Shown here: one piece after another, positions 5,108 through 50,681 of the stretch
How positions within the stretch are numbered: position 1 is the stretch's first letter
Layout: each line of letters starts with the position of its first letter
Assembly: GCA_030144965.1 (NCBI GenBank)
Contig: JAMPUU010000007.1
Span: 1 to 64,000 of the forward strand
From: Nitrospira sp. BO4
GTDB taxonomy: Bacteria > Nitrospirota > Nitrospiria > Nitrospirales > Nitrospiraceae
Reading direction: 5' to 3'
DNA length: 64,000 nt
The notes under the pieces: model-generated
What the model was told of the DNA's origin: nothing
What the model saw: the letters and a program-made list of their open reading frames with translations, nothing else
Database searches by the model: none
Made by a program: the position numbers and the translations under genes

Positions 5108-5134
5108 TTCTCCCCAGGAACCGACCGTAATACC
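5108..5134 (+). promoter_or_regulatory. Element motif, copy 1 (upstream of SNF2 gene)
   Basis: TTCTCCCCA, 9 nt, then CGTAATACC, ending 24 nt before the SNF2 helicase start. This is one of seven copies in front of element genes. It is probably a promoter or operator, but the spacing is too short for a normal -35/-10 pair. Confidence 0.6.
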
Positions 5135-5157
5135 GCTGAGGCATACATTGCCGATTT

Positions 5158-7485
5158 ATGGCACCATTTCACACAGAATCGAGCTCTCCCACCCTTTCTG
5201 TCCGCGACCTCTTGCCGCCTCGGCTCCAAGAGGAATGGGTCGTCGAACAGAACGGGCCGCTCGATCAGGTCATCGCTGCGAACGACTTGGGCACTAAGCA
5301 GATCTTTTGGCGCTGTTGGGCTGCGCCCACACATATCTGGCAAGCCACCATTTACGAACGCCAACACCGCCCGGACTGCCCCTATTGCACCATCGACACG
5401 CTCTCGCTCCCCCCGCCACCAGGATCTCTTGCCGCCCTCCATCCTGATCTCACTCCCTATTGGCATCCCACGGCAAATGCCCCCCTCACACCACGCGACC
5501 TTACGCCCTACAGCACACTGCTCATACGATGGACCTGTCCCAATAATCCCGCGCACAGTTGGCACGAATCCGTCACGGAATATGTCCAACATGCACTCGA
5601 AAGTCACCATTGCCCGGTTTGCGCGCTCGGATGGACCACCGACACCTTGCGACTCTTTCTAGAAACCCTCCAGCCCCATCTGAACGAACTCAACTCCTCT
5701 GAGCTCTTTCTCATTGCACAGCAAGCCGGCCTACTAGAAATGCAGGGCGACGCTGCAACCATTGTGCAAGGGGTGATCGACCAATCTATTCGTGCACATG
5801 ATCTCGCAAAATTCATCCACAACGGAGAATCCGCCAGACACCTCGCTCAACGTGCGAAGAATGGCGGCCTCTCCCGCAATGACGACGGACTACCTGAACT
5901 CCACACCGACGATCTCCTTGCCGCTTATCAGAACCCCCTTCTTCCGATTCGAGACGATCGTGCCATCAGCTATCTCATCGAATCCGCTGTGCAAAAACTT
6001 TGGCGGTTGGCCTTTGAAAATCCCGACCATACCCTCGCCTCACTCCACACCAGCCCTGACACACACTATGCCAGTAAAATCAAAGAACGCTTCCTTGAAG
6101 AATATTCCGCTGCCACGACCTTACCCATTCCCTCCAACTATAACTTCCAGATCGACGGGGTCCCCACCCCACCGAGTCTATTACAACGACTCCTCGCTGT
6201 TCGGCTAAGAGATCGTCGGCGATTTGGAATCTTCACAGGCACCGGCTCAGGAAAAACCATTGCGGCCTGCCTAGGCAGCCGCGTCATTCAGGCCCGTCTC
6301 ACCCTGATCCTTACGCCCTTCAATGTCGTCCCCATGTGGGCCGCCGTAATCAAAAACGCCTTTCCTGACGTTGAAATCTGCACAGGAACATTTACCCCCA
6401 CATGGAAACATCCGGAACGCCCGCGCTACCTACTCCTGCATTATGAATTGCTCCAACTCCCGCACTCTGAAACACAGATCCGGAAGTGTCTCGCCGACAA
6501 CCCCGACCTCGATTGTTGCGTGATCGACGAGCAACACCTTTCGAAAGTCCGAAATCCCAAACTACTTTCACTGCGACGGCAGCGACTCAATCTGCTCACA
6601 ACCTTAGCCTCGCAACAAAATCCTCATCTGGCCCTCACCGCGATGTCGGCCACCCCCATCCTCAATGAGCTCGAAGAAGCCAAGAGCACCCTCGAACTCA
6701 TCCGAGGCGAACCCCTGCCCCATTTAGACACCACTGCCTCCATTCCCAACGCCATGCGCATCCATCAAGAGATCACGCTGTCCGGATTCCGCTGGCTGCC
6801 GCGCTACGATATTCAATATCGCGAACACCTCATTGAGATCGACTGCACGAAGGACTTGGCCAGACTTCAAGCCCTCCCACGTTCAGCCGGCATTCTCCAA
6901 TTGGAGCAACAACTCTTTCATATTCGGCTCCCAGCACTCCTCAGTCTCTTGCAGCCCAAAACGATGATCTACACGAACTTGCTTGAGGGGATCTTGGAAC
7001 CACTCGCTCACGCCATTCGGACCGCGGGGTGGCGGGTCGGATTCTTTACCGGAGAACATAAAGACGGCGCCGACGATTTCCTCAACGACAACATCGATAT
7101 CCTGATCGTGTCTGACGTCGCCGCCGTCGGATACGACGGCTTTCAACGTGTCTGTCATCGACTGATCTGCCTCAATACCCCCTGGACCCATGCCATGTTT
7201 TCTCAGCTTCTGGGCAGGTTGTACCGTCCAGGCCAACCCCATCACACCGTCGATCTCTTCCTCCTGATAGCCCGCGCCACCGTCGAAGACCGCATCTGGT
7301 CATGGGATGAAGGAAAACGAACACGTATTCGGTTTAAACGATCTCTCGCCGACGCCACGATCGATGGTGTCATCCCGAGCGCTCCCCTCCAAAGCCCGCA
7401 ACAAACATACAAACACCTCATGAACTGGCTATCTCGGCTCGACGACCCCCATAAGCCACACCTCCTCCCCACCGCTGGACCGTAA
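5158..7485 (+). CDS. SNF2-type helicase with two N-terminal zinc ribbons
   Basis: This 775-residue protein is a superfamily 2 ATPase. The helicase core begins near residue 345, with Walker A GTGSGKT (about 361-367), a DEQH box (about 455-458), an SAT motif, and a C-terminal lobe with LLGRLYRPGQ (about 683-692), the Q-xx-GRxxRxGQ-type motif VI of SNF2/ERCC-like enzymes. Ahead of it are two zinc-ribbon modules (about 48-77 and 108-155), each with a W-x-C...H-x-W...CPxC pattern, probably for nucleic-acid binding. It presumably translocates on duplex DNA or displaces proteins. It is the first + strand gene of the element, with a copy of the dispersed motif 24 nt upstream and another overlapping its stop codon. 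The ribosome binding site is weak. Confidence 0.87.
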   Translation: MAPFHTESSSPTLSVRDLLPPRLQEEWVVEQNGPLDQVIAANDLGTKQIFWRCWAAPTHIWQATIYERQHRPDCPYCTIDTLSLPPPPGSLAALHPDLTPYWHPTANAPLTPRDLTPYSTLLIRWTCPNNPAHSWHESVTEYVQHALESHHCPVCALGWTTDTLRLFLETLQPHLNELNSSELFLIAQQAGLLEMQGDAATIVQGVIDQSIRAHDLAKFIHNGESARHLAQRAKNGGLSRNDDGLPELHTDDLLAAYQNPLLPIRDDRAISYLIESAVQKLWRLAFENPDHTLASLHTSPDTHYASKIKERFLEEYSAATTLPIPSNYNFQIDGVPTPPSLLQRLLAVRLRDRRRFGIFTGTGSGKTIAACLGSRVIQARLTLILTPFNVVPMWAAVIKNAFPDVEICTGTFTPTWKHPERPRYLLLHYELLQLPHSETQIRKCLADNPDLDCCVIDEQHLSKVRNPKLLSLRRQRLNLLTTLASQQNPHLALTAMSATPILNELEEAKSTLELIRGEPLPHLDTTASIPNAMRIHQEITLSGFRWLPRYDIQYREHLIEIDCTKDLARLQALPRSAGILQLEQQLFHIRLPALLSLLQPKTMIYTNLLEGILEPLAHAIRTAGWRVGFFTGEHKDGADDFLNDNIDILIVSDVAAVGYDGFQRVCHRLICLNTPWTHAMFSQLLGRLYRPGQPHHTVDLFLLIARATVEDRIWSWDEGKRTRIRFKRSLADATIDGVIPSAPLQSPQQTYKHLMNWLSRLDDPHKPHLLPTAGP

Positions 7486-7489
7486 TAGA
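7463..7489 (+). promoter_or_regulatory. Element motif, copy 2 (overlaps the SNF2 stop)
   Basis: TCCTCCCCA, 9 nt, CGTAATAGA. The shared core CTGGACCGTAATA is identical to copies at 13 kb, 15 kb and 36.8 kb. It lies inside the last codons of the helicase gene and 121 nt before the next start, so the coding sequence has been recruited to or constrained by the motif. Confidence 0.6.
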
Positions 7490-7609: not shown

Positions 7610-8002
7610 ATGATACCCATTGCCCCACTTCACACATTCGCATCCCCCCTTGATCGCCCCTGGCTCGTCTATAGCAGTATCCTTACGGCCCTCCTCTTCG
7701 CCGCATCTATCATTTTTGATGTCGTAAGTACGCTTATGTTGGGAAACATGTGGTTGATTGCCTTCGCCTGTAGTCTCGGCATCACCCTTGTATCAATGTC
7801 CTTAGAGGACAAACAGGATCAGCAGCGTAGACAGCGATTTGAAATCGCCCTCATCACCGTTCCCCTCCCAACTCATATCGTAGCCTCAACGTCTGCAGAA
7901 CTTGACTCCCCAACCAAAGAACAGATTCGTTTGTATCTCAATAAATATCACCAAGGATGGAGTTTTGCTTTCAACAGTCAAGAGCTCACCCACTATGCGT
8001 AA
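7610..8002 (+). CDS. Small membrane protein, unknown
   Basis: This 130-residue protein has two predicted membrane segments (about residues 20-43 and 45-65) after a short N-terminus, followed by a charged KQDQQRR patch and a soluble C-terminal domain. AAAGGAC precedes the ATG. The two-helix N-terminal layout is loosely like VirB3/TraL proteins of conjugation systems, but no conserved motif supports that. The motif copy at 7463 is the likely promoter region. Confidence 0.7.
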   Translation: MIPIAPLHTFASPLDRPWLVYSSILTALLFAASIIFDVVSTLMLGNMWLIAFACSLGITLVSMSLEDKQDQQRRQRFEIALITVPLPTHIVASTSAELDSPTKEQIRLYLNKYHQGWSFAFNSQELTHYA

Positions 8003-9984: not shown

Positions 9985-10188
9985 ATGCCACGCTCGCACG
10001 TGAATAGCGTCAAAGGCTCACGACGCTGGGCCCATCGAGGAAAGCGATATCCCACGGATTACTGGGAACAGCGCTGGCACCAATGGCGACAGCGACAGCG
10101 ACATCAACACATCGCACGCGCAGAGATCCGCGCGGCTCACTTCAGTTCAAACACCCCACTATATATATCCAGGATTCCAACACGATGA
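9985..10188 (+). CDS. Small basic protein upstream of the methyltransferase
   Basis: This 67-residue protein is rich in Arg, His and Trp, and AAAGGACT precedes the ATG. Its stop overlaps the methyltransferase start (ATGA at 10185-10188), implying translational coupling. The function is unknown; the charge suggests nucleic-acid binding. Confidence 0.6.
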   Translation: MPRSHVNSVKGSRRWAHRGKRYPTDYWEQRWHQWRQRQRHQHIARAEIRAAHFSSNTPLYISRIPTR

Positions 10189-11642
10189 AGATACATGTCG
10201 CCGACTTATTTTGCGGCGCCGGCGGCACCAGCACCGGGCTACTTCATGCCTGCGACGAACTCGGACTCGACCCCACCCTAGTCGCGATCAATCATTGGGA
10301 CGAAGCGATTGCCACCCATCAATATAATCATCCCACCGCACAACACTTATGCGCGAACCTCGATAATGTCGATCCTGTAAAAGTCGTGCCTGGCCGTCAT
10401 CTGCACTTACTCGTCGCCAGTCCAGAATGCACGCATCATAGCCGCGCGCGTGGTGGCAGACCGATGTCAGATCAATCCCGCGCAAGCGTCTGGCACATTA
10501 TGCGATGGGTTGAAGTCTTGCGCGTCGATCACCTCCTCATCGAAAACATTTCAGAGTTCCTCTCATTCGGACCACTCAACGCAAATGGCCGCCCAATCAA
10601 AAAGAAAAAGGGACAGGGCTTTCTTGCGTTTATCCATGCGCTTGAAGCTATGAATTACCGCGTCGAGTGGCGCATCACAAATTGTGCCAACTTCGGCGAT
10701 CCCACTTCTCGCGAACGTCTTTTCATTCAAGCGAGGCGAGGAAACGGAGCCATCACCTGGCCTGAACCCACGCATTCTGCCACCGGCAATCCCGATCTCT
10801 TCGGAGGTCTCCAGAAATGGCGAGGCGCGCGAGATATTATCGACTGGTCGATTCCCAGTCAGAGTATCTTTACACGAAAAAACCCCCTTCGGCCAAAAAC
10901 ATTGGCCCGTATCGAAGCCGGACTCAAGAAGTTCGGAGGTGCCCACGCCGACCCATTCCTTGTCATCCTCCGACGACACCAAAACGGCCGTGCTATTACC
11001 GACCCTCTCCCAACATTGACCGCAGCCGGTACACACATTGGATTGTGTGAACCGACCTACTACCCGGCATACACGGATGAACAGCAGGGCCAAACCATTC
11101 CCCCGTTTATCGTTCCACAATCCAGCATCATCGCACCTCGCGAACTTGATCAACCCCTCAGTACCATCACCACTACCAGTCGAGGCATTGGACTTGTCGA
11201 GCCTTTTCTCCTTCCCCACCGAGTCTTTCAACAAATGGATGTGGATTCGATCGACCGTCCCATGCGGACGCTGATCGGCAAAAACGCTGGCGATGTCGCG
11301 CTCGTGGAACCTTTCCTGATCCAATTCAACCGGAATGCAGAACCTCGCCGCCTGCAAGATCCGTTACCGGCACTCACTACCCGCAATCATATGGCCCTCA
11401 TTGTCGTCAACGGGAATCCCTACTACTGTGATATTCGCTTTCGGATGCTTACACGGCGAGAACTCAGCTTGGCCATGGGATTCCCGGATACCTATCACTT
11501 CACCGGAACCAAGGAAGCGCAGACCCGAATGATCGGGAATGCCGTCCCCTGTGCCACCGCAAAAGCGCTCTGCCTCACCATTTTAAAACGCTACGCACAA
11601 CAACGACGTCCTCACCCCAGATCGCAGCTCCATGCCGCCTAA
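10185..11642 (+). CDS. DNA (cytosine-5-)methyltransferase
   Basis: This 485-residue enzyme would transfer methyl from S-adenosylmethionine to C5 of cytosine in DNA. Motif I is DLFCGAGGTSTG near residue 6. The catalytic cysteine is about C82 in ASPECTHHS, with Glu in place of the usual second Pro of PPC. The ENI of motif VI is near 119, and motifs IX-X (RELSLAMGFPDTY, IGNAVP) are at the C-terminus. Between about 265 and 415 the recognition region holds three related units with PLPTLT-type and EPF turns, a layout known in phage and element methyltransferases. No partner restriction enzyme is adjacent, so it may protect the element or regulate it. The ATG is coupled to the upstream gene. Confidence 0.92.
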   Translation: MKIHVADLFCGAGGTSTGLLHACDELGLDPTLVAINHWDEAIATHQYNHPTAQHLCANLDNVDPVKVVPGRHLHLLVASPECTHHSRARGGRPMSDQSRASVWHIMRWVEVLRVDHLLIENISEFLSFGPLNANGRPIKKKKGQGFLAFIHALEAMNYRVEWRITNCANFGDPTSRERLFIQARRGNGAITWPEPTHSATGNPDLFGGLQKWRGARDIIDWSIPSQSIFTRKNPLRPKTLARIEAGLKKFGGAHADPFLVILRRHQNGRAITDPLPTLTAAGTHIGLCEPTYYPAYTDEQQGQTIPPFIVPQSSIIAPRELDQPLSTITTTSRGIGLVEPFLLPHRVFQQMDVDSIDRPMRTLIGKNAGDVALVEPFLIQFNRNAEPRRLQDPLPALTTRNHMALIVVNGNPYYCDIRFRMLTRRELSLAMGFPDTYHFTGTKEAQTRMIGNAVPCATAKALCLTILKRYAQQRRPHPRSQLHAA

Positions 11643-13139: not shown

Positions 13140-13166
13140 TTCTCCCTACCGCTGGACCGTAATAGT
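13140..13166 (+). promoter_or_regulatory. Element motif, copy 3 (upstream of ssb)
   Basis: TTCTCCCTA, 9 nt (CCGCTGGAC), CGTAATAGT, 87 nt before the SSB start. It shares the exact 13-base core CTGGACCGTAATA with three other copies. Confidence 0.62.
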
Positions 13167-13252
13167 TGATAGATGATATCGACACAGCCTGAAACCCAGG
13201 ATAAATCATGAACCCATCATCCATTCACCATCCACAGAAGGAGCTCTATCTC

Positions 13253-13642
13253 ATGACCGGTTTCAACAAAGTCATCCTCATCGGCCACCTTACGCGCATG
13301 CCCGAACTCCGGTACACACCGAATGGTACACCCGTCGCCTCCTTTGGATTGGCCGTCAATCGCAAATTCAAACAAGGCGACGACATGAAAGACGAAGTCT
13401 GCTTTATCGACATCGTCGTGTTCGGCAAACAGGCCGAGCATTGCGGACAATATCTCAGCAAAGGCAGCGGCGTGATTGTGGATGGCCGGCTGCAGCAACG
13501 ACGATGGGAAACAGAAGATGGGCAAAAGCGCAACAAACATGAAGTCGTCGCCAATACCATTACCTTCATGCCCAAATCTTCTTCGCCCGGGGTCCCGGAA
13601 GGGACATCAGACATACCTGAAGACGAATATCAGCACAGCTAA
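13253..13642 (+). CDS. ssb: Single-stranded DNA-binding protein (SSB 1)
   Basis: This 129-residue protein has the classic SSB OB-fold: a FNKVILIGHLTRMPELRYTP start, VASFGLAVNR, then FIDIVVFGKQAE and LSKGSGVIVDGRLQ. It binds single-stranded DNA during replication or recombination, presumably of the element. ATG 13253 is chosen because GAAGGAG lies 9 nt upstream; an ATG at 13208 would add 15 atypical residues. The tail (after about 110) is short and ends in acidic/His residues, lacking the usual D-D-D-I-P-F tip that recruits host partners. It is the most canonical of four SSB-like proteins in the window. Confidence 0.93.
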   Translation: MTGFNKVILIGHLTRMPELRYTPNGTPVASFGLAVNRKFKQGDDMKDEVCFIDIVVFGKQAEHCGQYLSKGSGVIVDGRLQQRRWETEDGQKRNKHEVVANTITFMPKSSSPGVPEGTSDIPEDEYQHS

Positions 13643-15049: not shown

Positions 15050-15076
15050 TTCTCCCCACCACTGGACCGTAATACC
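15050..15076 (+). promoter_or_regulatory. Element motif, copy 4
   Basis: A perfect example: TTCTCCCCA, 9 nt (CCACTGGAC), CGTAATACC, 69 nt before the gene at 15145. Confidence 0.65.
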
Positions 15077-15144: not shown

Positions 15145-15957
15145 ATGATTCGAGTGGTCCTCGCTGACCCTACGCCATCTTCGCCAGACCCCACTCCTCC
15201 AAGTACCTCCCCACCTCACCACATCTGGGAGGACCTGCATGCCCTGCTTCATGAGCTGGACTGGTTCGTCACCCGTGACTGGCAATACATCGTCCGGGAT
15301 CCACACGTGGCCACCGTTCTGATCCGGGAAGCGACGCGCGCCGCCCTCCTCGCGGAAGACATTCGCACGGATATCTCTCACACCACGGCCACCCATACAC
15401 ACGGACAGACGAACGAAACACTCTGCGAGACCATTCGCCACTATTTAAGTCCCTCTACTGAACCACAACGCCGGGACGACGACCCACCCCACATCACGGA
15501 GATTCCAATCACGGTCGACCGCGTGATTCTCTACGAATTTGGTCATCCCAAAGAACATGAACATCCGCTTTACGTAAATCATCATATCGTCAGTTTCTGT
15601 GCCGCCTTCTATCATGAAGATGAATTCATTTTTGCCAGAGCCCATCTCCAACTCCTGCTCACCCCCGCCCATATTCTGAACTGGCTGGCCGGATCGCGAT
15701 CAGTCCCGGTGGATCAGAACCATTTCCCACTGACCTACGTGCCCGATGGCACTCTCTTTCATCTACTCGGGATGGGCATCACTCAATTGATCTATCTCAA
15801 TCAAACCGAACTCATGATGAAAATGAAACAGGGACGGCGCTTTCCCGCTGACTATAAACTCCATGGCCCCGTCATGCCGGCCGGACTCAATATGCCGCAG
15901 CCCGTCCTAAAGTCCGGCGATCGGCAACAACCCGCTTGGGTCAATATCAAAAGTTAA
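15145..15957 (+). CDS. Hypothetical protein
   Basis: This 270-residue protein is the first gene after a motif copy. The N-terminal 30 residues are Pro/Ser-rich, then come a helical region (about 30-75), a His/Asp-rich linker, and a second domain (about 120-250) with alternating strands and a helix containing HLLGMGITQLIYLNQ. There is no signal peptide or recognisable motif. The stop lies 17 nt before the next start, so the two are probably co-expressed. Confidence 0.6.
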   Translation: MIRVVLADPTPSSPDPTPPSTSPPHHIWEDLHALLHELDWFVTRDWQYIVRDPHVATVLIREATRAALLAEDIRTDISHTTATHTHGQTNETLCETIRHYLSPSTEPQRRDDDPPHITEIPITVDRVILYEFGHPKEHEHPLYVNHHIVSFCAAFYHEDEFIFARAHLQLLLTPAHILNWLAGSRSVPVDQNHFPLTYVPDGTLFHLLGMGITQLIYLNQTELMMKMKQGRRFPADYKLHGPVMPAGLNMPQPVLKSGDRQQPAWVNIKS

Positions 15958-17879: not shown

Positions 17880-17907
17880 TTCTCCCCTAGACCACGTATA
17901 TAATACC
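17880..17907 (+). promoter_or_regulatory. Element motif, copy 5 (TATAAT variant)
   Basis: TTCTCCCCT, 10 nt, then TATAATACC, 34 nt before the gene at 17941. Here the CGTAAT of other copies is replaced by a consensus TATAAT, which suggests that this half of the motif occupies the -10 position. Confidence 0.58.
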
Positions 17908-17940: not shown

Positions 17941-18198
17941 ATGACTCCACGGCATCAGCATGTGTTACGCATCTGTCGGGACGCACTCGTTGATGGATTG
18001 GGCACACAATCCACCGGAGAAAAACTGCTCGCAGCCTTGATTCTCAACCGAGCAGACTGGCTGCATGAAATGGGGTACACCATCGCCGATGCCATCGATC
18101 GCGTCGGGATTGAGTGGATCGCCATCATTCCTGACGTCGTCAAAACCCTTCGAGAAGAAGGCCACATATCCGACATCCTCTCTACTCCCCGGTCCTAG
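17941..18198 (+). CDS. Small helical protein, unknown
   Basis: This 85-residue soluble helical protein has a perfect AAAGGAG ahead of the ATG and sits 34 nt after a motif copy. It has no signal peptide, Cys pairs or recognisable motif. The hydrophobic helix VGIEWIAIIPDVVKTL could mediate dimerisation. Confidence 0.65.
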   Translation: MTPRHQHVLRICRDALVDGLGTQSTGEKLLAALILNRADWLHEMGYTIADAIDRVGIEWIAIIPDVVKTLREEGHISDILSTPRS

Positions 18199-18303: not shown

Positions 18304-19056
18304 ATGCAGTCATTCCATGTCGTACAGTGGCAGACCATCGCAGGACGTGGCGTCATCGCCATCGTCGAAGCCCCACCCGTGATCACGATTCAGCCGGACG
18401 AACTCATCGAATTGGACGGACTCCTGTATTGCGTCTCACACGTCGAATCATTCTCGTATGATCCCGGGTACAGCCGAGCCCGCACGCTTGGGCTCATTGT
18501 CTCGCCTACGACACCACGCATCGTGACATCCCTACTTGAAAGCTACGCTCCACAGGCTATAATCCGTGCTCCGCCGAGGGGCACACTTCACATGACCGAC
18601 ATATCTCCCACTGATTCCTCCATCCCCACCCGGCGCCGAGCTATTCTCTGTGACATTGACGGCACAATTGCCCTCCGAGGCACCCGCGATCCCTACGACT
18701 TCGAACAAGCGATGGAAGATGCGGTCAATTGGCCCATCGTACATCTGATTGAACAGCTGCTGACATCCAGCCCACATCCGGTCAGCCTCATTCTGCTATC
18801 CGGACGACAGGAACAATTCCGAGACATCACGGAATATTGGTTATTCCGTCATCAGCTCTTTCCAACTCGACATAGCCTCTGGCTCAGACTCACTGGCGAT
18901 CCAAGACCTGATGTCGTCGTGAAAGAAGAACTCTTTCACCGCATTATTGCTCCAGAATTTCACGTCGAATACGTCTTCGACGACCGCAATACCGTTGTCG
19001 CCATGTGGCGACGTCTGGGCCTCACCTGTCTCCAAGTCGCCGACGGCGCGTTTTAG
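18304..19056 (+). CDS. HAD-type polynucleotide 3'-phosphatase-like protein with N-terminal extension
   Basis: In this 250-residue protein, residues about 110-250 match the HAD phosphatase half of T4 polynucleotide kinase: DIDGTIA (motif I, about 118), LLSGR (motif II), V-V-K-E (motif III Lys) and V-F-D-D-R-N (motif IV). It would remove 3'-phosphates from DNA or RNA ends so that they can be ligated or extended. No kinase P-loop is present. Residues 1-80 form a separate beta-rich domain with VEAPP and ELIELDGLLYCV. An internal ATG (18592) could make the phosphatase alone; the long start at 18304 lacks a clear binding site. Confidence 0.75.
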   Translation: MQSFHVVQWQTIAGRGVIAIVEAPPVITIQPDELIELDGLLYCVSHVESFSYDPGYSRARTLGLIVSPTTPRIVTSLLESYAPQAIIRAPPRGTLHMTDISPTDSSIPTRRRAILCDIDGTIALRGTRDPYDFEQAMEDAVNWPIVHLIEQLLTSSPHPVSLILLSGRQEQFRDITEYWLFRHQLFPTRHSLWLRLTGDPRPDVVVKEELFHRIIAPEFHVEYVFDDRNTVVAMWRRLGLTCLQVADGAF

Positions 19057-27308: not shown

Positions 27309-29765
27309 ATGCTGGATACTCCGTCCGCTGTTACGCCTGTCATCCCCGCATCACTCCACGAACTGATTCAATCCCTCCGACACGCCCTGCGAGACGAGCT
27401 CAACTCCCGACAGACTCCCAACGATGGGAAACCCTTGAACGTGCCACTCTGCGACGGCCATGTGCAGAGCCGCTATGGCCGGCATCAGCGCATCACCTTC
27501 CGAAGCCCGATGATGCCGCTTCAGGGATACCTGCACGATACCCAGGGCGAGCTCGTCATCGACGGGCGCCCCCATCCCTGTGTCATCCTCGGATTGACCG
27601 TCGATCAACTCACCCTCTCGCTTACGGCCGAACTGCACGACTATATCCCTGAAGCACGATTGACCATCGATCGGATGCGGCTGCTTCTGACGCTGGACAA
27701 ACGCCTGGCCAATATCCAAGCCCATCCACAAGACTACCTGACCAGCCTCGCCATGAAATGTTTCTCGCCCTCGGCTGTTCCCCAGCCGATCGCCCAACAC
27801 CTCACCGTGGCGCCGGACCCCAGCCTCAATCCTGAACAATACGAAGCCCTCGTTCGTGCGATTCAGCATGACTTCTGCTACATCTGGGGACCGCCCGGGA
27901 CCGGCAAAACGATGGTCATCGGCTCCAGCACTAAAGTCGCCTATGAACGCGGCGACCGCACACTGATTCTGGCCAATACCAATGCCGCCGTCGATCAAGC
28001 CTTAGAAGCCGTCCTCACCAAGATGCCCGACGCCCCACATGGCGCCATCATTCGCTTGGGACTCAGTGCCGACGATGCACCCAGTCATCTCGCACCCGTC
28101 ACACTGGACACCTTGACGGAAGGCGAACTCTCCACCCTCCAGCACGAACTTCAACAACTCCAACAGCAAGAAACTCCTCTGGTTCAACAGGCCCGTCACT
28201 TGGAGCAGCTCGTCACTCTACACGAGGATCTGCAACGCCTCGATCACCGATACGCCGAACTCTCGCATGAAGCTCTGTCCCTACAACAAGACCTACACCA
28301 ACACCAGAGCCAAACCGATGCGCTGCACTCAGCGTGTACCGCACTCGATCAGGAATTGAACCAGTTCTGGGCCGCCTCACGCTGGCGCCGATTGTTTCTG
28401 CGACATGCCAACGACATCCAAGCCGATATCTTTGCGGCTCGACTCGCACTCCACGAACATGACGACGCCATCGACCAGCTCACGGTCCGCCACCAGACCA
28501 TCCAACACGCCAGCGACGATCTCCTTACCACACGCCGACTCTTGCTCCAGTCACTCGACAGACAGGTCCCGTGCGAGCAGCTCGAACACCGACACGCTCA
28601 ACTTCATGAGACCCAACAACGCCTGATGACCCTCCATCAGGCCATCACCACCTGCCAACGGGCCATGGCCTCTGTTGAACATCGACTCATTCAACGTGCC
28701 CAGATTCTCGCGACCACGATTACCCGCACCTACACCACCCCTGCCCTCGAACAAGAACGCTTCGACGTGGTTATCATTGACGAAGGCTCAATGGCGAGCC
28801 CACCCGCCCTGTTTACCGCTCTGTGCCTGGCCAGAAAACAAGTCATTATTGTCGGCGACTTCCTCCAGCTGCCCCCCATCGCCGAATCCACCACCAAACA
28901 GGCGAAACAGTGGCTCGCCACCGACATTTATCATCTCGCTCAGATCACACACGATCAGGATCCGCGCGTAGCAGCCCTGCGGACCCAATACCGCATGCAT
29001 CCGGACATCGCCGCCGTCGCCGCGCGACTCTATCAACGTGCCGGACTCGCCTATCGAACCGATCAGCAGACACGGTGCGCCCGACAGCCACTGGTGGATC
29101 ACGCCCCGATCCCCGGCAAAGCCATGGCCTTTATCGATACGAGTGATCGCCATCCTTGGGTCGAAAAAGACCATAAAGGCTCTCCGAGCAATCGCTACCA
29201 CGCGCTCGTGGCCCTGGCTTTAGCCAAACAAGCCATCCGTCAGGCCACAGACACCCCACCGACCATCAGCATCATTTCCCCCTACCGGAATCAGGTCCGA
29301 CTCCTCCAGGATCTGATTCACAAAGCGCAGCTGACGGACTCAGTCGAAGTCGGTACCATCCACAGTTTTCAAGGCCGGCAGAGCGACATCGTAATTTTCG
29401 ATACCACCGTCACGGGCGATCTGACCCGCACGATGCTCGGACGATGTGACTCAGACCAATCGCCCTGCAAGCTCATGAACGTGGCGTTTACGAGAGGGAA
29501 ATGTAAACTCCTCGTGATTGGACACCGCCCGTCGATCGACACACTGGCCAACGTGCCGGACTCCCTCCTCTGGGAAGCCCTCCATCTGGCCGCAGAACAA
29601 GAGAGTGTCTTTCTCTCCGCACCGTTTCTTGAAGACACCACGCCACGAACGCAACCCGTGGCACCAGCACCCACACCGACCACCGCTGGCCATTCACCCG
29701 CCACCACGACAACCCGGATCGCGACACCAAGGCCTTCACGGCTCTACCTCATTCGCAGTGCGTAA
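27309..29765 (+). CDS. Superfamily 1 helicase (Upf1/Dna2-like)
   Basis: This 818-residue helicase has GAGGAGG five bases before the ATG. Motifs: Walker A GPPGTGKT (about 194-201), an N-T-N-A-A-V-D-Q motif Ia, Walker B IIDEGSMA (about 488-495), GDFLQLPP (motif III), QYRMHP (motif IV), TIHSFQGRQSD (motif V) and NVAFTRGK (motif VI), the order of SF1B AAA_11/AAA_12 enzymes. A long Gln/Leu-rich coiled-coil insertion lies between motifs Ia and II (about 265-440). The N-terminal 170 residues are beta-rich, like the oligonucleotide-binding domains of this family. It probably unwinds DNA or RNA for the element. The last 45 residues are Pro/Thr-rich. Confidence 0.92.
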   Translation: MLDTPSAVTPVIPASLHELIQSLRHALRDELNSRQTPNDGKPLNVPLCDGHVQSRYGRHQRITFRSPMMPLQGYLHDTQGELVIDGRPHPCVILGLTVDQLTLSLTAELHDYIPEARLTIDRMRLLLTLDKRLANIQAHPQDYLTSLAMKCFSPSAVPQPIAQHLTVAPDPSLNPEQYEALVRAIQHDFCYIWGPPGTGKTMVIGSSTKVAYERGDRTLILANTNAAVDQALEAVLTKMPDAPHGAIIRLGLSADDAPSHLAPVTLDTLTEGELSTLQHELQQLQQQETPLVQQARHLEQLVTLHEDLQRLDHRYAELSHEALSLQQDLHQHQSQTDALHSACTALDQELNQFWAASRWRRLFLRHANDIQADIFAARLALHEHDDAIDQLTVRHQTIQHASDDLLTTRRLLLQSLDRQVPCEQLEHRHAQLHETQQRLMTLHQAITTCQRAMASVEHRLIQRAQILATTITRTYTTPALEQERFDVVIIDEGSMASPPALFTALCLARKQVIIVGDFLQLPPIAESTTKQAKQWLATDIYHLAQITHDQDPRVAALRTQYRMHPDIAAVAARLYQRAGLAYRTDQQTRCARQPLVDHAPIPGKAMAFIDTSDRHPWVEKDHKGSPSNRYHALVALALAKQAIRQATDTPPTISIISPYRNQVRLLQDLIHKAQLTDSVEVGTIHSFQGRQSDIVIFDTTVTGDLTRTMLGRCDSDQSPCKLMNVAFTRGKCKLLVIGHRPSIDTLANVPDSLLWEALHLAAEQESVFLSAPFLEDTTPRTQPVAPAPTPTTAGHSPATTTTRIATPRPSRLYLIRSA

Positions 29766-29776
29766 TAGGATCCTAT

Positions 29777-30580
29777 ATGCACCCGTTCTTTCAGCTCCTC
29801 ATCACCGATCCTGACAAGGCTCACGCCAAGATCCTGGCAGATTGCACCGTCTCGTTTTGGCTCAAAGAAGCCCTTCGACAGTTAGCAAGCCGGGATCCCG
29901 TCGACGCACTCCACGATCTCGATCTTCTGCTCAATCTGTACGAAGCCATCTGCGACGTGCAACTCCAACGCACGCCGACCCCCCACACACGGATCCGGAC
30001 GCTCACGGATCACACCGATCCCCCGACCGACACGCTGGCCGAAGCCCTTGACCAATTTCCAGGCGAGATTATGATCGGCGGCACGATCGACCGACTCCTC
30101 ATTCCCGACCTCCTGGCGGTGATCGCCGAGGCCAGTGTTAGCCTGGGATGGGAAACACCACTCTTTGCCCCCCAAAATGAACCGGAACTCTGCCGCGCAC
30201 TCGACGAGACGCATCATCTCCATTTGTACAACGGGTTTGCCTTGGAAGGAGAATTCCCCGCCCTCGAAGACTGGCTGATCGAGCACCTTATCCCCTTCAC
30301 CCGACACTCAACAGGTACCAGCGCCTATCAAGCCGAACGCGTGGAATACCGAAAAGGTCTCACCGCACCGCAGCGCCTCGTCCTCGATCAATCAGGAAAT
30401 GAACTGGTCCCACGCGATACCCTCATTCGTGTCCTGCGCGCCTTAAAGGAAGGACAGAGTGACGACGCAACCATATTGTTGGAGCATGCCGTCGGTCCCA
30501 CGCTCGCACCGCTCCCGCCTTTTCGGATCGCCCAGACCATACCCAATTTTCACCACTCAGGCCGCTCCCCCCTCTTCTAA
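29777..30580 (+). CDS. Hypothetical protein downstream of the helicase
   Basis: This 267-residue soluble, mostly helical protein starts 11 nt after the helicase stop with AGGATCC before the ATG, so it is probably co-expressed. It has an acidic central region and no Cys clusters, P-loop or membrane segment. The family is unknown; a helicase partner is an inference from position. Confidence 0.65.
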   Translation: MHPFFQLLITDPDKAHAKILADCTVSFWLKEALRQLASRDPVDALHDLDLLLNLYEAICDVQLQRTPTPHTRIRTLTDHTDPPTDTLAEALDQFPGEIMIGGTIDRLLIPDLLAVIAEASVSLGWETPLFAPQNEPELCRALDETHHLHLYNGFALEGEFPALEDWLIEHLIPFTRHSTGTSAYQAERVEYRKGLTAPQRLVLDQSGNELVPRDTLIRVLRALKEGQSDDATILLEHAVGPTLAPLPPFRIAQTIPNFHHSGRSPLF

Positions 30581-33285: not shown

Positions 33286-33382
33286 CCGGGTACCAACCAG
33301 GATCGGTACAAGAGTTGTCGATCCAGGATCTGTCAGTTCCGCGAGGTTGCTCCTCATCTCAAGCTCGCGTATCGTGCAGACC

Positions 33383-34717
33383 ATGATGGAACAGCCGGTG
33401 TCCCACAACCAGCCGCTCATCCAGCCGATCGTAGAACCCTTCCAACGGTTCCTCCACGCCCAGTCTAGCGGCGGTGTGCTGCTGTTGGCCGCCACTGTCG
33501 CGGCGATGGTCTGGGCCAATTCCCCCTGGGCCGAGTCCTATGAGACGTTTTGGCACACGCCCGTCAGTCTGGTGGTGGGGTCTCATGCGTTGACGGAAAC
33601 GTTGCTGGATTGGATCAACGACGGGCTGATGGCGATGTTCTTTTTCGTCATCGGATTGGAAATCAAGCGGGAAATCTTGGTCGGAGAGTTGGCGACGTTC
33701 CGGCAAGCCGCTCTCCCGCTGACGGCGGCGTTGGGCGGGGCGACGCTTCCGGCAGTGCTCTACTTGGTTCTGAATACGCCCGGACCGGGCGCTCCTGGAT
33801 GGGGCATTCCGATGGCAACCGACATAGCCTTCGCACTCGGGATTCTGGCCTTACTCGGCAGTCGGGTCCCGTTGGCCTTGAAAGTCTTCTTGACCGCGCT
33901 GGCCATCGCTGACGATCTACTGGCGGTTCTGGTCATCGCGCTATTTTATACGTCGACGATTGCATGGGGGAATCTAGCCATCGGCGGAGTGTTCCTCGTG
34001 CTGTTGATCGCCGCCAATGTGGCAGGCATACGGCATCCGCTGGTGTACTCGGTCCTGGGGATCGGCGGCTTGTGGCTGGCGTTCCTCTTATCCGGCGTGC
34101 ATGCCACCATCGCGGGCGTGATTGCTGCGATGACGATTCCCGCTCGGACGCGGCTGACCGGACGCGAGTTCCTTTCGAGAGGCAAGGTGCTACTTGAACG
34201 GTTCGAGCAGGCGATGTCTCCTGGGAAGCCCCAATTGGCTAACCGGGAGCGGCAGCAAATCGCCCATCATATGAAAACCGCTGTGCTGCAGGTGGAGACC
34301 CCCCTGCAGCAATTGGAGCAGGCGCTGCATCCCTGGGTGATGGTCGTCGTCATGCCGGTATTCGCCCTGGCCAACGCAGGGATCACGCTCGATGCGAACA
34401 TCGGCGCGATGCTGATCAATCCGGTGGCGCTGGGAGTCATCCTCGGGTTGCTCGTGGGGAAACCTGTCGGCATCGTGCTTTCGTCCTGGTTCGTGATACG
34501 AGGAGGCCTCGCCACCTTGCCATCCGGCGTCTCTTGGCCTCACCTCTGGGCCGTGGGGTGTCTTGCGGGGATTGGATTCACGATGTCGCTTTTTATCACC
34601 GGCTTGGCGTTCACCCACGGGCCGTCGGTGATGTCGGCTAAGGTGGGCATCCTGGTGGCGTCGACGACGGCGGGGAGCATCGGTTGGCTCCTCCTGAAAC
34701 GTATTCGACCGGAATAA
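33383..34717 (+). CDS. nhaA: Na+/H+ antiporter NhaA
   Basis: This 444-residue NhaA exchanges Na+ for H+ across the inner membrane for sodium and pH homeostasis. Family landmarks: FFFVIGLEIKRE (about 90-101), MATDIAFALG (about 144-153), ALAIADDLLAV with the paired ion-binding Asp (about 173-183), and GIGFTMSLFI near the C-terminus. Twelve or so membrane segments are predicted. ATG 33383 (or 33386) is chosen because conserved sequence begins there; the frame runs upstream to overlap the exchanger gene. A 50-residue hydrophilic loop (about 275-330) is longer than usual. It follows the CaCA gene by about 100 nt. Confidence 0.93.
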   Translation: MMEQPVSHNQPLIQPIVEPFQRFLHAQSSGGVLLLAATVAAMVWANSPWAESYETFWHTPVSLVVGSHALTETLLDWINDGLMAMFFFVIGLEIKREILVGELATFRQAALPLTAALGGATLPAVLYLVLNTPGPGAPGWGIPMATDIAFALGILALLGSRVPLALKVFLTALAIADDLLAVLVIALFYTSTIAWGNLAIGGVFLVLLIAANVAGIRHPLVYSVLGIGGLWLAFLLSGVHATIAGVIAAMTIPARTRLTGREFLSRGKVLLERFEQAMSPGKPQLANRERQQIAHHMKTAVLQVETPLQQLEQALHPWVMVVVMPVFALANAGITLDANIGAMLINPVALGVILGLLVGKPVGIVLSSWFVIRGGLATLPSGVSWPHLWAVGCLAGIGFTMSLFITGLAFTHGPSVMSAKVGILVASTTAGSIGWLLLKRIRPE

Positions 34718-36791: not shown

Positions 36792-36817
36792 TTCTCCCCA
36801 CGCTGGACCGTAATACC
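36792..36817 (+). promoter_or_regulatory. Element motif, copy 6 (upstream of receiver genes)
   Basis: TTCTCCCCA, 8 nt, CGTAATACC, with the exact 13-base core CTGGACCGTAATA, 44 nt before the start at 36861. The identical 44-nt distance is seen before the ParM gene. Confidence 0.65.
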
Positions 36818-36860: not shown

Positions 36861-37076
36861 ATGGCACGGATTCTTATCCTCGATCCTAATGGATTGCGCC
36901 GCAGTCGCTATCGAAAAGTCCTGGAAGCACAAGGACATGACGTGAGCGAAAGCTCGCTCTCCCTCCACGACATGTCTCTCTACCACCCCCTGCAATTTGA
37001 CCGAATCATTTCGGACATTCCTGACATCACCCAAGAAGCGATCGAGGCATCACTCCTTGTCGCCACACACTCCTAG
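36861..37076 (+). CDS. Truncated receiver-like protein
   Basis: This 71-residue protein has AGGAGG before the ATG. It starts ARILILDPNGLRRSRYRKVLEAQGHDV, the first strand and helix of a response-regulator receiver domain, but only one Asp of the acidic pair is present, and the rest of the fold is too short to include a normal phosphoacceptor or Lys strand. It may be a decoy or a fragment. It lies 8 nt upstream of a full receiver. Confidence 0.55.
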   Translation: MARILILDPNGLRRSRYRKVLEAQGHDVSESSLSLHDMSLYHPLQFDRIISDIPDITQEAIEASLLVATHS

Positions 37077-37084
37077 GAGCACCC

Positions 37085-37474
37085 ATGGCTAAAATACTCA
37101 TCGTTGAAAATTACGTCGACCTTCAGCTATTGCTCGAAGACGCACTGCTCGCCGATGGGCATCAGGTCATCACCGCACACAATGGCGCACAGGGCCTAGA
37201 CCAGGCTCTCACAGAACAGCCGGACCTTATCCTCACGGATATGAAGATGCCCATCATGACGGGAGAACAAATGATTACCATCCTCCAGTTACTCATGCCC
37301 ACAACTCTCCTGATGGGTATGAGTGCCGATGTGGATCCACGACATGCGGAACGAGAACGGGATCGACTCAAGATCCACGCGTTTATCGCCAAACCTTTTG
37401 ATTTGCATCACCTTCGACGCACGATTACCGCGCTGGTGGAGCGACGAGCGCCACCAATAGAGTCCGCCGCATAG
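37085..37474 (+). CDS. Stand-alone response-regulator receiver domain
   Basis: This 129-residue protein is a complete CheY-like receiver: KILIVENYVDLQ at the start (E-N in place of the usual D-D pair), the phosphoacceptor D in LILTDMKMP (about 51), MGMSAD in place of the Thr/Ser strand, and IAKPF with the conserved Lys (about 102). No output domain or kinase is nearby. The altered acidic pair may change Mg2+ binding, so phosphorylation is uncertain. It ends in Ala-Ala and is co-transcribed with the truncated receiver. Confidence 0.85.
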   Translation: MAKILIVENYVDLQLLLEDALLADGHQVITAHNGAQGLDQALTEQPDLILTDMKMPIMTGEQMITILQLLMPTTLLMGMSADVDPRHAERERDRLKIHAFIAKPFDLHHLRRTITALVERRAPPIESAA

Positions 37475-40484: not shown

Positions 40485-41264
40485 ATGACTGCCGAATCTA
40501 TTGCACGCCAATTCATCGCCACGCTGGAACAGACCGGATTCCGCGCTCAGCTCGGACAGAGCATCAACTTCGGACACAAGATTCTGCTCAGTTCCTCCGC
40601 AGGCATCGATCACGGCGCGCTCATCGTCTACGTCGGGAAAAAAGGCTCGAGGTACGTCACCAACGAACTCCGCGGCCCCAGCGATGACTTGCTCGGCACG
40701 ATCAACACGGCCTGGAACAATGCTGTGGGTACTCCCGACCGCGCCAAAGGATCCCCGTCATTGCCCTCGACAACGGTCCCACCCTCCGCACCTGGCACGA
40801 TCGAGCTGTGGGTCGATGGGGCCTGTCTCCAAGAGCAAAACGGATTACGATTCGGCTGGGCCTACGTGATTCGACGAGAGCGACAAGAACTGGCTCGAAA
40901 GAGTGGCAGCCGCATCGCTCCCCACGCAGTTTCGCAACGCAATGTCGCCGCCGAAATTCAGGCTGTGATGTCCGGACTTGAAATGTGCGTCCGGATGGGA
41001 TATTCCGCAGTCACGGTGTTCTATGATTACGAAGGACTCGAAGCCTGGGTTACTGGACGTTGGCATGCGAAAACCCCCTTTACTCAAGACTACGCCACAG
41101 GAGTTCGCAGCCTACCCCTCACAATCGCATGGAGAAAAGTTGCGGCCCATACCGGCGTACCCATGAATGAACTGGTCGATTCCCTTGCTACCAGCGCTGC
41201 CTCCCTCTCCGTTGAGCGACACCCTATTCCCACGACAGCTCCCGCGTTGTTCTCACGCCAATGA
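40485..41264 (+). CDS. RNase H-like protein
   Basis: This 259-residue protein is called from ATG 40485 (AGGAGG upstream). Residues about 105-240 form an RNase HI fold: LWVDGACL (first catalytic Asp, about 109), NVAAEIQAVMSGLEM (catalytic Glu), VFYDYEGLEAW (second Asp), and a C-terminal HTGVPMNELVDSLA (final Asp). It would cut RNA in RNA:DNA hybrids. The first 90 residues are an unrelated small domain of unknown role. It would suit R-loop removal or primer processing by the element. Confidence 0.83.
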   Translation: MTAESIARQFIATLEQTGFRAQLGQSINFGHKILLSSSAGIDHGALIVYVGKKGSRYVTNELRGPSDDLLGTINTAWNNAVGTPDRAKGSPSLPSTTVPPSAPGTIELWVDGACLQEQNGLRFGWAYVIRRERQELARKSGSRIAPHAVSQRNVAAEIQAVMSGLEMCVRMGYSAVTVFYDYEGLEAWVTGRWHAKTPFTQDYATGVRSLPLTIAWRKVAAHTGVPMNELVDSLATSAASLSVERHPIPTTAPALFSRQ

Positions 41265-43800: not shown

Positions 43801-44327
43801 GTCGCCAGCGAGGTCCGGCGGAGCACTGCTTAGCGGACTCCATCGGACAATCCGTCTGAACATCGGACGGCGTGGGTACTACGACATTGCCCTCTGGCGA
43901 GTGACCGGAGTCGATTCTGTATGTCGGGGGAATTGGTGCACCAATACTCCTGACGACTCAGCACAATACAGATCAGGTATGGGAGTCATGATGTGTACAT
44001 ACCACATTCGTATACCGCTGTGATTACAGGAAGGCATGCCACCGTGCATTCCGATCGCGCAGCCTTGCTTGAGACGGCAGGCTAGTCAAAATACCGTCCA
44101 CCCTCGGCATCTCGGGACGATGAGATGCCCCTCAGTTTCTTGCGGGTCAGGAGCAAACCCCGACGCCCGATGTCGCAGCCCTCATCGGGTGCGCGTCCGT
44201 ACTGCGACGGTTGAACAACTCATAGCCAGAAACAGAGCTGAGAGCTTCGTCCTCCGACGAGGCTCTCGTCTCTCGGCTCATGACATCCGTAATACCTGTT
44301 CATACACCATGATCGCGGGAGGTTGTC
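43801..44327. other. Intergenic region with a partial element motif
   Basis: About 530 bp without a supported gene; frames at 44036-44488 have no binding sites and unlikely composition. CCGTAATACC at 44287-44296 repeats the right half of the element motif, 32 nt before the next start, but no TTCTCCCCA box lies at the usual distance. Confidence 0.4.
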
Positions 44328-44531
44328 ATGCCTACTGTCCTCGACATGCTTGCACCTTATGCCATCGTCCTGTTCGTGCTCGCCATCATCACCCCTATTG
44401 TTCTCAACTCCATACATCGACGGGGACTCTCTGCCGCATACAGTCGTCCGCGCTATCTCAATCTCAGTGGCGCGACGGCCACACCTAATCGACGACGATC
44501 CTTGTCCGCCCCTCATCACGTGCACACATGA
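44328..44531 (+). CDS. Small single-span membrane protein
   Basis: This 67-residue protein has GGGAGG before the ATG. One N-terminal membrane segment (about 8-27) is followed by a basic Ser/Arg-rich tail. Its stop overlaps the next start (ATGA). The function is unknown. Confidence 0.58.
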   Translation: MPTVLDMLAPYAIVLFVLAIITPIVLNSIHRRGLSAAYSRPRYLNLSGATATPNRRRSLSAPHHVHT

Positions 44532-48269: not shown

Positions 48270-48767
48270 TTAGCCCACATCGCTTTGTCTCCACACGACT
48301 TCGGGCCAGTCATGATGGAACATGGATGAGACATCAGGCATCCACGCCCCCGCATGTCCCAATGAGGAGAGTCGCACTACCGGACCAAATGCCGTCACCT
48401 GATCAGGTGCCAGGTTTACGCGCTGAGAGATTTCAAACCGCCATTGATCCCACTCGTCCAGACCCATCACCGTCGTTAACAATGCAGGACGGAGAAACAG
48501 TCCCTCGGGTTCCTGCTCCGGAGTCACCCCCTGTACGACCATCCCAACCCCAGGCGCTCCAATCCGTCTTGCATGCTGGATCACCATTTCGGTCACCGAT
48601 AGACGAGTTTCGAGCGTGTAGGGCTCGGCCTCCCACAGGTCGGCCGAACGAATGCAATACAGATAGCCATCCGGTACAAGGATCGACCGGGCTTCAATCG
48701 GTCGTAATGCCATCAGCGCCTCAAGATGCCTGATCCGTGCCCCCTGACACATCTCTTCCCACAACAT
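48270..48767 (-). CDS. Hypothetical protein
   Basis: This 165-residue protein has GGAGGAGG before the ATG. It has an alpha/beta pattern with a helix near the start (ARIRHLEALMAL), followed by strands containing GVGMVVQGVTP. No family is recognised. It lies downstream of the YdjM-like gene in the same orientation. Confidence 0.6.
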   Translation of the reverse strand: MLWEEMCQGARIRHLEALMALRPIEARSILVPDGYLYCIRSADLWEAEPYTLETRLSVTEMVIQHARRIGAPGVGMVVQGVTPEQEPEGLFLRPALLTTVMGLDEWDQWRFEISQRVNLAPDQVTAFGPVVRLSSLGHAGAWMPDVSSMFHHDWPEVVWRQSDVG

Positions 48768-48800
48768 GCTCCGTCCTCCTCCCTCATTCCACGTCTCTTC

Positions 48801-49349
48801 TCACCCTCTCCTCATCGTTCGTCCGTCTCCACTCACCCACTCACCGCTCTCTGTCGCACTTCCCATCACATAGGGCATGATCGGCGTCTTCACCTCATGC
48901 TCTACTCTGATCCAAAAGCTCACCAGAAACAGCAGGAACCCTCCGACCAAGAGTGCCCGATCCATAACGCCATAGACGGGAAACCGACCTAACACCCACC
49001 GTTCTTTGGAAGGCCACCAGAACATCACCCCACCCGATGCCGCATCCAAGAGCACGTGGCTCCCCCACCCTAGACAGATAGCACAGACAACGGGAAGCGG
49101 AATCATTACCACCAATCCCGCGACCCCGATCATCACCACCATCAGCAACGAATGACTGATCGTCCGGTGCCCCCAGAGATATTTGATCCACCAGGATAAG
49201 AACCAGAACCGTTGTCCCATGACCGAATATGGTTCATCAATATCCGGAGCCAATCCTGCCAGGGCCGCCGTGAGGGTCAATAGGGGGTCGGCGTTGAAGA
49301 GGAGAGAGGCAAGGCCGGCTGGAACTATGGCATGCGTTCGTCCGGACAT
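48801..49349 (-). CDS. YdjM/DUF457-type membrane protein
   Basis: This 182-residue protein is called from ATG 49349 (GAGGAGA upstream). It has about four membrane segments. LAPDIDEPYS (about 33-42) and WGHRTISHSL (about 60-69) are the D-x-D and GHRxxxHS signatures of the DUF457/YdjM family, described as membrane-bound metal-dependent hydrolases. The substrate is unknown. Its start overlaps the end of the upstream gene by 25 nt, implying coupled expression. Confidence 0.82.
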   Translation of the reverse strand: MSGRTHAIVPAGLASLLFNADPLLTLTAALAGLAPDIDEPYSVMGQRFWFLSWWIKYLWGHRTISHSLLMVVMIGVAGLVVMIPLPVVCAICLGWGSHVLLDAASGGVMFWWPSKERWVLGRFPVYGVMDRALLVGGFLLFLVSFWIRVEHEVKTPIMPYVMGSATESGEWVSGDGRTMRRG

Positions 49350-50212
49350 GACAGTCTCCTCTCTGCATAACGTTGCCGTGCTAAGACCCGATGCTTCACC
49401 TTCTGTGACACCAGGATATATTTCGGCAGGAGTTTTTCGGGAATCCGAAAATAACTCATCGCCATTCTCGCAATCATGGTCGGCGACAAGGTGATATTGT
49501 TGGTGTAGTGCGTCTCCATTCGCGCCTCCACCTTGGAATAGCGCCGCTTGTTCGTATATATGGCCAGGATGACCTGTTGCAGCCACCACTTCTCGAACAA
49601 TGCCGGGTAGTCAACCTGCACTCGATTGAGATACGCCAGCCCTTCCTGTTTCAATCCCCCACGATCTTCCTGCCTCATCGTCGAATCAGAGACCAATCCG
49701 GCTTGTCGGCCTGTCACCATCCGACGATGCACCGTGCCTCCATATCGGTATCGCGCCATTACCCGATGCTTGACCTTCTCTGAGAGCCTCATGCAGACGG
49801 GCAACATGTATCTAGGCAGCTTGAAATAGGTCATCACAAGACACGCGACCGCTTTTGGTTTTAACTGAATCGACTCCTCCGTTTGGGTGTAGTGCTTTTC
49901 CATCCGCACATCGAATTGGGCTAGACTCCATCCTGGATGGATAGCACCCAACACTCGATTCACCAACCAATCTCCTACGAGTGACGGATTCTGCACAGAG
50001 ACTTTCCGGAGATACGCGAGTCCCTCCTGCTTCAGACCCCAGATCGCTTCATTGATATAACTTGGTTCTCGCTCCCGTGAGGTGGATTCATACTCCTCCA
50101 TCCGGCCAGCCAGATGACGAGGGTCCTCTCCAATGCCCAATGGCATCGCTTCACCCGACGGAAGGGCAACCTCCTGCTCATCCTGTTCACCTGTGGCACC
50201 GCTGTTCTGCAT
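49325..50212 (-). CDS. Protein with a tandem internal duplication
   Basis: This 295-residue protein is built of two similar units of about 100 residues (about 58-158 and 187-284). Each begins GLKQEGLAYL, continues through a W-containing helix, R-M-E-x-H-Y-T, a M-x-Y-F-x-[LI]-P turn and ends EKVKHRV or QKVKHRV followed by R-Y. Each unit is helical and basic. No known family is recognised; DNA binding is possible. A 50-residue acidic N-terminus precedes the units. Confidence 0.68.
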   Translation of the reverse strand: MQNSGATGEQDEQEVALPSGEAMPLGIGEDPRHLAGRMEEYESTSREREPSYINEAIWGLKQEGLAYLRKVSVQNPSLVGDWLVNRVLGAIHPGWSLAQFDVRMEKHYTQTEESIQLKPKAVACLVMTYFKLPRYMLPVCMRLSEKVKHRVMARYRYGGTVHRRMVTGRQAGLVSDSTMRQEDRGGLKQEGLAYLNRVQVDYPALFEKWWLQQVILAIYTNKRRYSKVEARMETHYTNNITLSPTMIARMAMSYFRIPEKLLPKYILVSQKVKHRVLARQRYAERRLSCPDERMP

Positions 50213-50654
50213 TAGCTCTGCTTTCTACAGATAATCTTTATATGTACTGTGGTCAGAATATCCTCAGAACCACTCCGCCCCATCACCCCTCATGACACCT
50301 GCCAGCCCTGCACCATGAAGGGGACTCAACCCACTATTACGATCACCCAATCCGGAGGAATGTCCACCCGCCCTCTCATCCGCATACCGTCATGCGTTCA
50401 CCACTCTGAGAAGTATCCCGCCAGCCATGCAATGATATTGCCCTGTAATGTCGGTGACTTGAACATGGACCACCATCACCGCTGAGAGACGACATCACCA
50501 GCCATCCGCCATTTCCCCACTATTTCTACAGGAGTCGATCGCCAAACCCCTTGGAGGACGCGAGGTTTCAGCAATGGCTCCGTCCATCGCTCGACCAACT
50601 CCCCCACATTTCGTGAGGAGTCTGCGCCATATCTCCCCAGCACAGTTCCCGACA
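50213..50654. other. Divergent intergenic region upstream of the ParM-like gene
   Basis: About 440 bp between the minus-strand operon and the partition genes. A 56-codon + frame (50315-50485) lacks a binding site and is not called. Actin-type partition systems often keep their centromere here, but I see no clear tandem repeats. Confidence 0.4.
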
Positions 50655-50681
50655 TTCTCCCCATCGGGAGATCGTAATACT
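50655..50681 (+). promoter_or_regulatory. Element motif, copy 7 (upstream of ParM-like gene)
   Basis: TTCTCCCCA, 9 nt, CGTAATACT, 44 nt before the start codon. In this copy TCTCCC and GGGAGA form a perfect inverted repeat with a 4-nt gap, suggesting binding by a dimer. Confidence 0.62.

Follow-up and report, generated by a model that had tools for sequence, protein, structure and literature searches.

Extracytoplasmic function (ECF) sigma factors such as SigW combine regions 2 and 4, and their promoters contain a -35 element and, in some cases, a -10 element of the CGTA type. In bacteriophage T4, the similarity of gp55 to sigma factors is confined to domain 2, and the late promoters consist of a short -10-like word without a -35 element (PMC2988020). 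SigN (ZpdN) is a sigma factor encoded by the Bacillus plasmid pBS32, with a plasmid-restricted regulon and with host-sigma promoters as well as a self-activated promoter of its own gene (PMC6751061), and in the SXT/R391 elements the SetCD regulon is an example of an element-encoded master regulator controlling a mobile element (PMC4344509). In this study, a recurrent promoter-like motif, CGTAATA, and a candidate sigma factor that may recognize it were analyzed on contig JAMPUU010000007.1 (C7, 276,929 bp) of the 4.7-Mb, 30-contig genome of Nitrospira sp. BO4; the first 64 kb of this contig are referred to as the window. No report of such a regulon was found in the literature.

The likely explanation of the results is that a plasmid-encoded sigma factor with region 2 only drives an element-wide regulon of -10-only promoters, in a manner resembling that of T4 gp55. 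The motif, its placement and orientation, the start-site signature, its conservation, its confinement to the element and its joint occurrence with the sigma factor were computed here; all results are sequence evidence, and gene starts throughout were taken from one simple gene caller, the same for all sequences. C7 was compared with three related contigs, P141 (G141:C2), P082 (G082:C31) and P176 (G176:C149).

When every 7-mer was counted in the 150 nt before genes, CGTAATA was the top upstream 7-mer on C7 (15 regions vs 0.52 expected) and, independently on each contig, on P141 (18 vs 0.56) and P082 (13 vs 0.35), outranking the Shine-Dalgarno words on all three. No such enrichment was seen across 440 kb of host chromosomal sequence (2 observed vs 0.79 expected), and a matrix built from P141, P082 and P176 alone detected, at a threshold of 11, 15 upstream sites on C7 versus 1 in these 440 kb. 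A preliminary description of the window had proposed an element-wide regulon, a proposal that would lose its ground if the motif were just as common within genes or across the chromosome of the host; this was examined, and the outcome favours the proposal, with the word located before many C7 genes and rare on the chromosome. In upstream regions the word occurred predominantly in the forward rather than the reverse orientation (15 vs 4 on C7, 18 vs 3 on P141 and 13 vs 3 on P082).

Comparison of 61 promoter-like sites from the four contigs with 33 intragenic controls identified an extended form, G-A-N-CGTAATA, with GA at -3/-2 of the heptamer in 30 sites and in two controls. Exactly 7 nt past the heptamer, 36/61 sites vs 7/33 controls had a pyrimidine-purine step, as is usual at transcription starts, and a purine occupied that start position in 55 sites vs 19 controls. 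Some of the predicted layouts are leaderless or nearly so, such as that at C7:158501(-), where transcription is predicted to begin at the A of the ATG. No conserved -35 element or other conserved upstream position was found in the 40 sites of P141, P082 and P176. The earlier suggestions that this word lies at -10 and that the system is not a sigma-70 one are both supported.

The motif was also shared by reciprocal-best orthologues more often than expected, in 10 pairs between C7 and P141 (p = 1e-7), 10 between C7 and P082 (p = 1e-8) and 10 between P141 and P082 (p = 6e-9), and was kept before orthologues despite diverged proteins. For the gene of a ParM-like actin, for example, the distance from CGTAATA to the start codon is 45, 43 and 42 nt in three megaplasmids. 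These patterns suggest that CGTAATA, extended as G-A-N-CGTAATA, serves as a -10 element without a -35 element in a family of Nitrospira conjugative megaplasmids.

A sigma factor gene was looked for on the rest of the element, as the preliminary description had advised, and one was located at about 194 kb of C7, outside the window. A Sigma70_r2 profile search of the genome returned 15 loci, the weakest of which was at C7 position 194,060; the gene, C7:193967-194947, encodes 326 aa comprising region 2 followed by three similar segments. Region 4 was not detected in the sigma-family proteins scanned, nor was there a match to it above the cut-off elsewhere on C7. Every scanned protein of the family contained Sigma70_r2, in most cases with a score slightly short of the Pfam cut-off; L047 and the genome search gave scores above it. 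Against PDB, the family profile matched region 2 of the SigA, RpoD, RpoS, FliA and SigW structures, with E down to 2.6e-7, and all 60 matches listed were sigma factors; comparison with PHROGs returned only a general sigma family (phrog_351). Orthologues with 42-47% identity are encoded on P141, P082 and P176, and shorter relatives, which have a single segment, not three, where they were aligned, were found in 14 more genomes of the class. A structure model built from two sequences (pLDDT 53, low confidence) folded each segment as beta-beta-alpha-beta.

Upstream of the sigma gene, a host-type promoter-like sequence, TTGnnn-N17-TACAAT, is present on 4/4 contigs and a distal CGTAATA in 3/4 plasmids. 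On C7, a TnpB gene with apparently intact catalytic residues (C7:192743-193939), absent in P082 and P176, lies between the sigma promoter region and the sigma gene. Downstream, all four plasmids encode a conserved 157-159-aa protein of no assigned family and then a protein of about 385-393 aa (C7:194984-196601); the latter is ParB-like on C7, and the genes may form a co-factor operon. On P082 (about 40640-40660, minus strand), an inverted repeat, ATGAC-N6-GTCAT, is located just downstream of the sigma gene's CGTAATA and is a possible repressor site; two of the other plasmids have a word resembling TATGAC at nearly this position.

In order to relate sigma factor and motif, further contigs were selected by a single criterion, a gene for a remote sigma relative (22-30% identity); E-names denote the stretches around these relatives (E050 = G050:C15 and so on). 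In six of nine such contigs, GTAATA ranked 2nd to 7th among about 1,500-3,200 upstream 6-mers, and its flanks differed by sigma clade: GGTAATAC in E050 and E150, AGTAATACA in E079 (two copies) and E073, and CGTAATATC in E038. In 80-kb stretches taken from other parts of four of these genomes, and from G141, GTAATA did not occur upstream of any gene. A second contig set contributed two more positives, E155 and E043, from the same sigma clade. The gene for the ParM-like actin was present in 17/18 genomes with the sigma factor and absent in 249/252 others (p = 6e-23). A link between the sigma factor and the motif is thus indicated by their co-occurrence and by the flanks specific to each clade, across about four independent lineages. 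On balance, although with less assurance than for the main explanation, we lean toward a previously undescribed sigma class, in which region 2 is joined to one to three beta-beta-alpha-beta repeats that replace region 4. Its gene would belong to the core of a widespread family of Nitrospirales megaplasmids, and each plasmid lineage would thereby have its own -10-only promoter code, co-evolved with its sigma. In L190-L193 (G163:C17:188001-268000), on a contig with one of the most divergent sigma relatives, TCCCGTA/ATCCCGT is enriched upstream instead of GTAATA, possibly reflecting a shifted promoter code.

Several observations weigh against the main explanation, the region-2-only sigma factor driving the regulon. 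In the second set, E131, E163 and E218 were weak or negative for the motif, and the clade of E224, E225 and E226 contained no such word in the stretches covered. Outside the three megaplasmids in which CGTAATA ranks first, the number of word matches near genes per contig is small. Several of the positive contigs carry related elements and therefore represent about four independent lineages, not ten, and the fold of the repeats is tentative because of the low confidence of the structure model. An alternative of small but appreciable probability is that CGTAATA is recognized as a -10 element by one of the host's own sigma factors, whether housekeeping or alternative, working with a plasmid-encoded activator, and that the region-2 protein does something else. 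In its favour, sigma region 2 is encoded at 14 other loci of the host, the core overlaps with the TA found in an ordinary -10 element, one copy reads TATAATA, and a box found to the left of some C7 sites is placed where an activator could bind. Against this alternative, no enrichment was found in the 440 kb of host chromosomal sequence or in the 80-kb control stretches of five genomes, no common activator site was seen in the other plasmids, and the flanks of the core vary with the sigma clade.

It is very unlikely that CGTAATA is instead bound as an operator or silencer by a DNA-binding protein of the plasmid, of the partition or repressor type. A ParB-like gene does adjoin the sigma gene; however, the motif is not palindromic, its orientation bias is strong, the purine start signature stands at a fixed distance of 7 nt, and sites lie only 0-10 nt from start codons in conserved genes.

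The preliminary description had treated the motif as bipartite, with CGTAATA as the right half and TTCTCCCCA or a close variant as the left half, at seven sites in the window. All seven are present at the coordinates it gave (Table 1), and the 13-base core that it reported in four copies, CTGGACCGTAATA, occurs exactly four times, at 7475, 13152, 15062 and 36803. The exact pattern TTCTCCCCA-N6-14-CGTAATA had four matches vs 0.00 expected from shuffles, and CTCCCCA-N6-14-CGTAATA had 11 matches in the whole genome, eight of them on C7, with none for a reversed-pattern control; at least one chromosomal match, that on C12, sits inside a gene. One copy of CTCCCCA-N13-CGTAATA was also found on G000:C4 (25,968 bp), where CGTAATA is not enriched. 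The TATAAT-like right half reported for one copy was confirmed at 17880, where TATAATA replaces CGTAATA, and the partial copies noted near 44287 and 29751 are real right halves, the position equivalent to the latter being occupied in a related plasmid. Other parts of the description did not hold. The location of all sites on the plus strand merely reflects gene direction, as there is a minus-strand right half in the window and further minus-strand copies elsewhere on C7, and seven clusters are too few, with about 20 promoter-like sites spread along the 277-kb contig.

Nor is it supported that the two halves together form the unit. At a match of at least 8/9 and 8-9 nt before the heptamer, TTCTCCCCA was found at 9/21 C7 sites vs 0/40 sites on the three related contigs (p = 1.7e-5), spanning about -32 to -24 relative to the predicted start; the CGTAATA promoter of the sigma gene itself on C7 carries it. 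Because it is absent from all 40 homologous sites and from about half of those of C7, the left half appears to be a plasmid-specific addition and not the core signal. As a stand-alone signal it was rejected, being not enriched in the window (16 matches with at most one mismatch vs 18.6 expected), and as a wider system the bipartite motif was rejected as well, since none of 269 further genomes of the class had more than one or two copies. That the left half is integral to the true unit and single-half sites are decoys would agree with its frequency on C7 and its presence at the sigma promoter, but is highly improbable given its absence from the related contigs even at orthologous-gene sites and the motif before orthologues of C7 genes whose own sites lack the box. 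The box probably serves as a binding site, either for an additional activator specific to this plasmid or for the C-terminal repeats of the sigma factor itself; this is the least certain part of the interpretation.

Two further explanations were rejected. An insertion-site artefact was discarded, as TnpB genes follow a few sites, and one lies between promoter and sigma gene on C7, but most sites precede other genes. A phage origin was discarded as well, as the ParM-like protein is on no viral contig and the sole weak sigma match (L103) shows no motif excess and resembles an ordinary sigma factor.

Under the proposed plasmid-encoded sigma system, the product of C7:193967-194947 would read CGTAATA via region 2, and its lack of a detectable region 4 would account for promoters with a -10 element and a start signature but no common -35 element. 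Host RNA polymerase with host sigma-70 would probably first transcribe the sigma gene from TTGnnn-N17-TACAAT, after which the new sigma factor would activate its own gene and plasmid replication, partition, repair and transfer genes; we infer this order from the combination of host-type promoter and distal CGTAATA at the sigma genes, which suggests a host-made first sigma followed by self-activation, as for SigN. About half of the C7 promoters would have gained the left box.

C7 appears to be a megaplasmid or most of one, since it shares 111 reciprocal-best genes with P141, a contig from the same species as the window's genome. The ends of P141 overlap by 5.6 kb, and it is therefore probably a circle of about 268 kb; the C7 sequence is not closed. 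C7 encodes the transfer and partition genes expected of a conjugative plasmid, namely TraF, a TraD/TraG-type coupling protein, TraT and ParB, as well as a vitamin-B12-dependent ribonucleotide reductase with an intein, UvrD and RecD-like helicases, a single-strand binding protein (SSB) and the ParM-like actin. Close relatives of the element are present in Nitrospira sp. Ga0074138 and Nitrospirae bacterium REEB81.

Table 1. Predicted promoter elements and associated genes in the window (window coordinates; ORF, open reading frame)
Position	Strand	Feature	Predicted start	Context
5108..5132	+	Left box TTCTCCCCA and -10 element CGTAATA (5126-5132)	5140	Before SNF2-type helicase/zinc-finger gene
5158..7485	+	DUF4379/SNF2-type helicase/zinc-finger gene		Putative regulon member; ORF start 5158 or 5212
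7463..7487	+	Left box TCCTCCCCA and CGTAATA (7481-7487)	7495	Overlaps helicase gene end; before ORF 7610-8002
13140..13164	+	Left box TTCTCCCTA and CGTAATA (13158-13164)	13172	Before SSB gene
13208..13642	+	SSB		Putative regulon member
15050..15074	+	Left box and CGTAATA (15068-15074)	15082	Before ORF 15145-15957
15145..15957	+	Conserved protein, no assigned family		Putative regulon member; orthologue preceded by CGTAATA in two other megaplasmids
17880..17905	+	Left box TTCTCCCCT and TATAATA variant of -10 element		Before ORF 17941-18198
29761..29767	+	CGTAATA without left box	29775	At end of helicase gene 27309-29765
29777..30580	+	Conserved protein		ATG 29777, 2 nt after predicted start; probably near-leaderless regulon member; P141 orthologue preceded by CGTAATA
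36792..36815	+	Left box and CGTAATA (36809-36815)	36823	Before 36861-37076 and receiver protein
37085..37474	+	Response-regulator receiver protein
44288..44294	+	CGTAATA without left box		Before ORF 44328-44531
50335..50341	-	CGTAATA		Before 49325-50212(-); P141 orthologue also preceded by CGTAATA
50655..50679	+	Left box and CGTAATA (50673-50679)	50687	Before ParM-like actin gene
50725..51816	+	ParM/PRTRC-D-like actin		Putative regulon member; homologues co-occur with sigma factor across genomes

Other genes on the element include that for the ribonucleotide reductase (C7:203518-208026; L098:8518-13026), whose intein has a LAGLIDADG domain and which is itself a predicted regulon member, with CGTAATA 20 nt before its start. 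Within the window are a C-5 cytosine DNA methylase (10083-11642), a protein with a polynucleotide-kinase-type phosphatase domain (HAD_PNKP, 18304-19056) and a Na+/Ca2+ exchanger family gene adjoining an NhaA-type Na+/H+ antiporter gene (32281-34717).

If the proposed system is correct, these plasmids carry a private transcription system of a kind that is rare outside phages, and their replication, partition and transfer genes would be set apart from host control. The sigma factor would be a minimal natural one, with region 2, without region 4 and with many predicted targets, and the clade-specific variants of sigma and promoter would provide a ready set for studying how region 2 chooses a -10 element. 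The promoter code could also be used in annotating mobile elements in Nitrospira, a key group of nitrifiers about whose plasmids little is known.

Compared with the described systems, the Nitrospira plasmid system shares with T4 late transcription (gp55/gp33/gp45) an element-encoded sigma factor with recognizable similarity only in domain 2 and a -10 word without a -35 element, a likeness that rests on domain content and promoter layout. It differs in that the elements are conjugative plasmids and not a lytic phage, that the word is CGTAATA and not the T4 late word, that the sigma factor carries predicted beta-beta-alpha-beta repeats, and that C7 promoters have the added left box. SigN is likewise a plasmid-borne sigma factor with a regulon confined to the plasmid, but its promoters have -35 and -10 boxes; the likeness is one of location and regulon layout. 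The ECF sigma factors share region 2 and a -10 element beginning with CGTA, whereas neither region 4 nor a -35 element was found in the Nitrospira plasmid system. The SetCD system resembles it in having one element-encoded master regulator; SetCD, however, are activators that work with host sigma and not a sigma factor, whereas the candidate regulator of the Nitrospira plasmids is a sigma factor.

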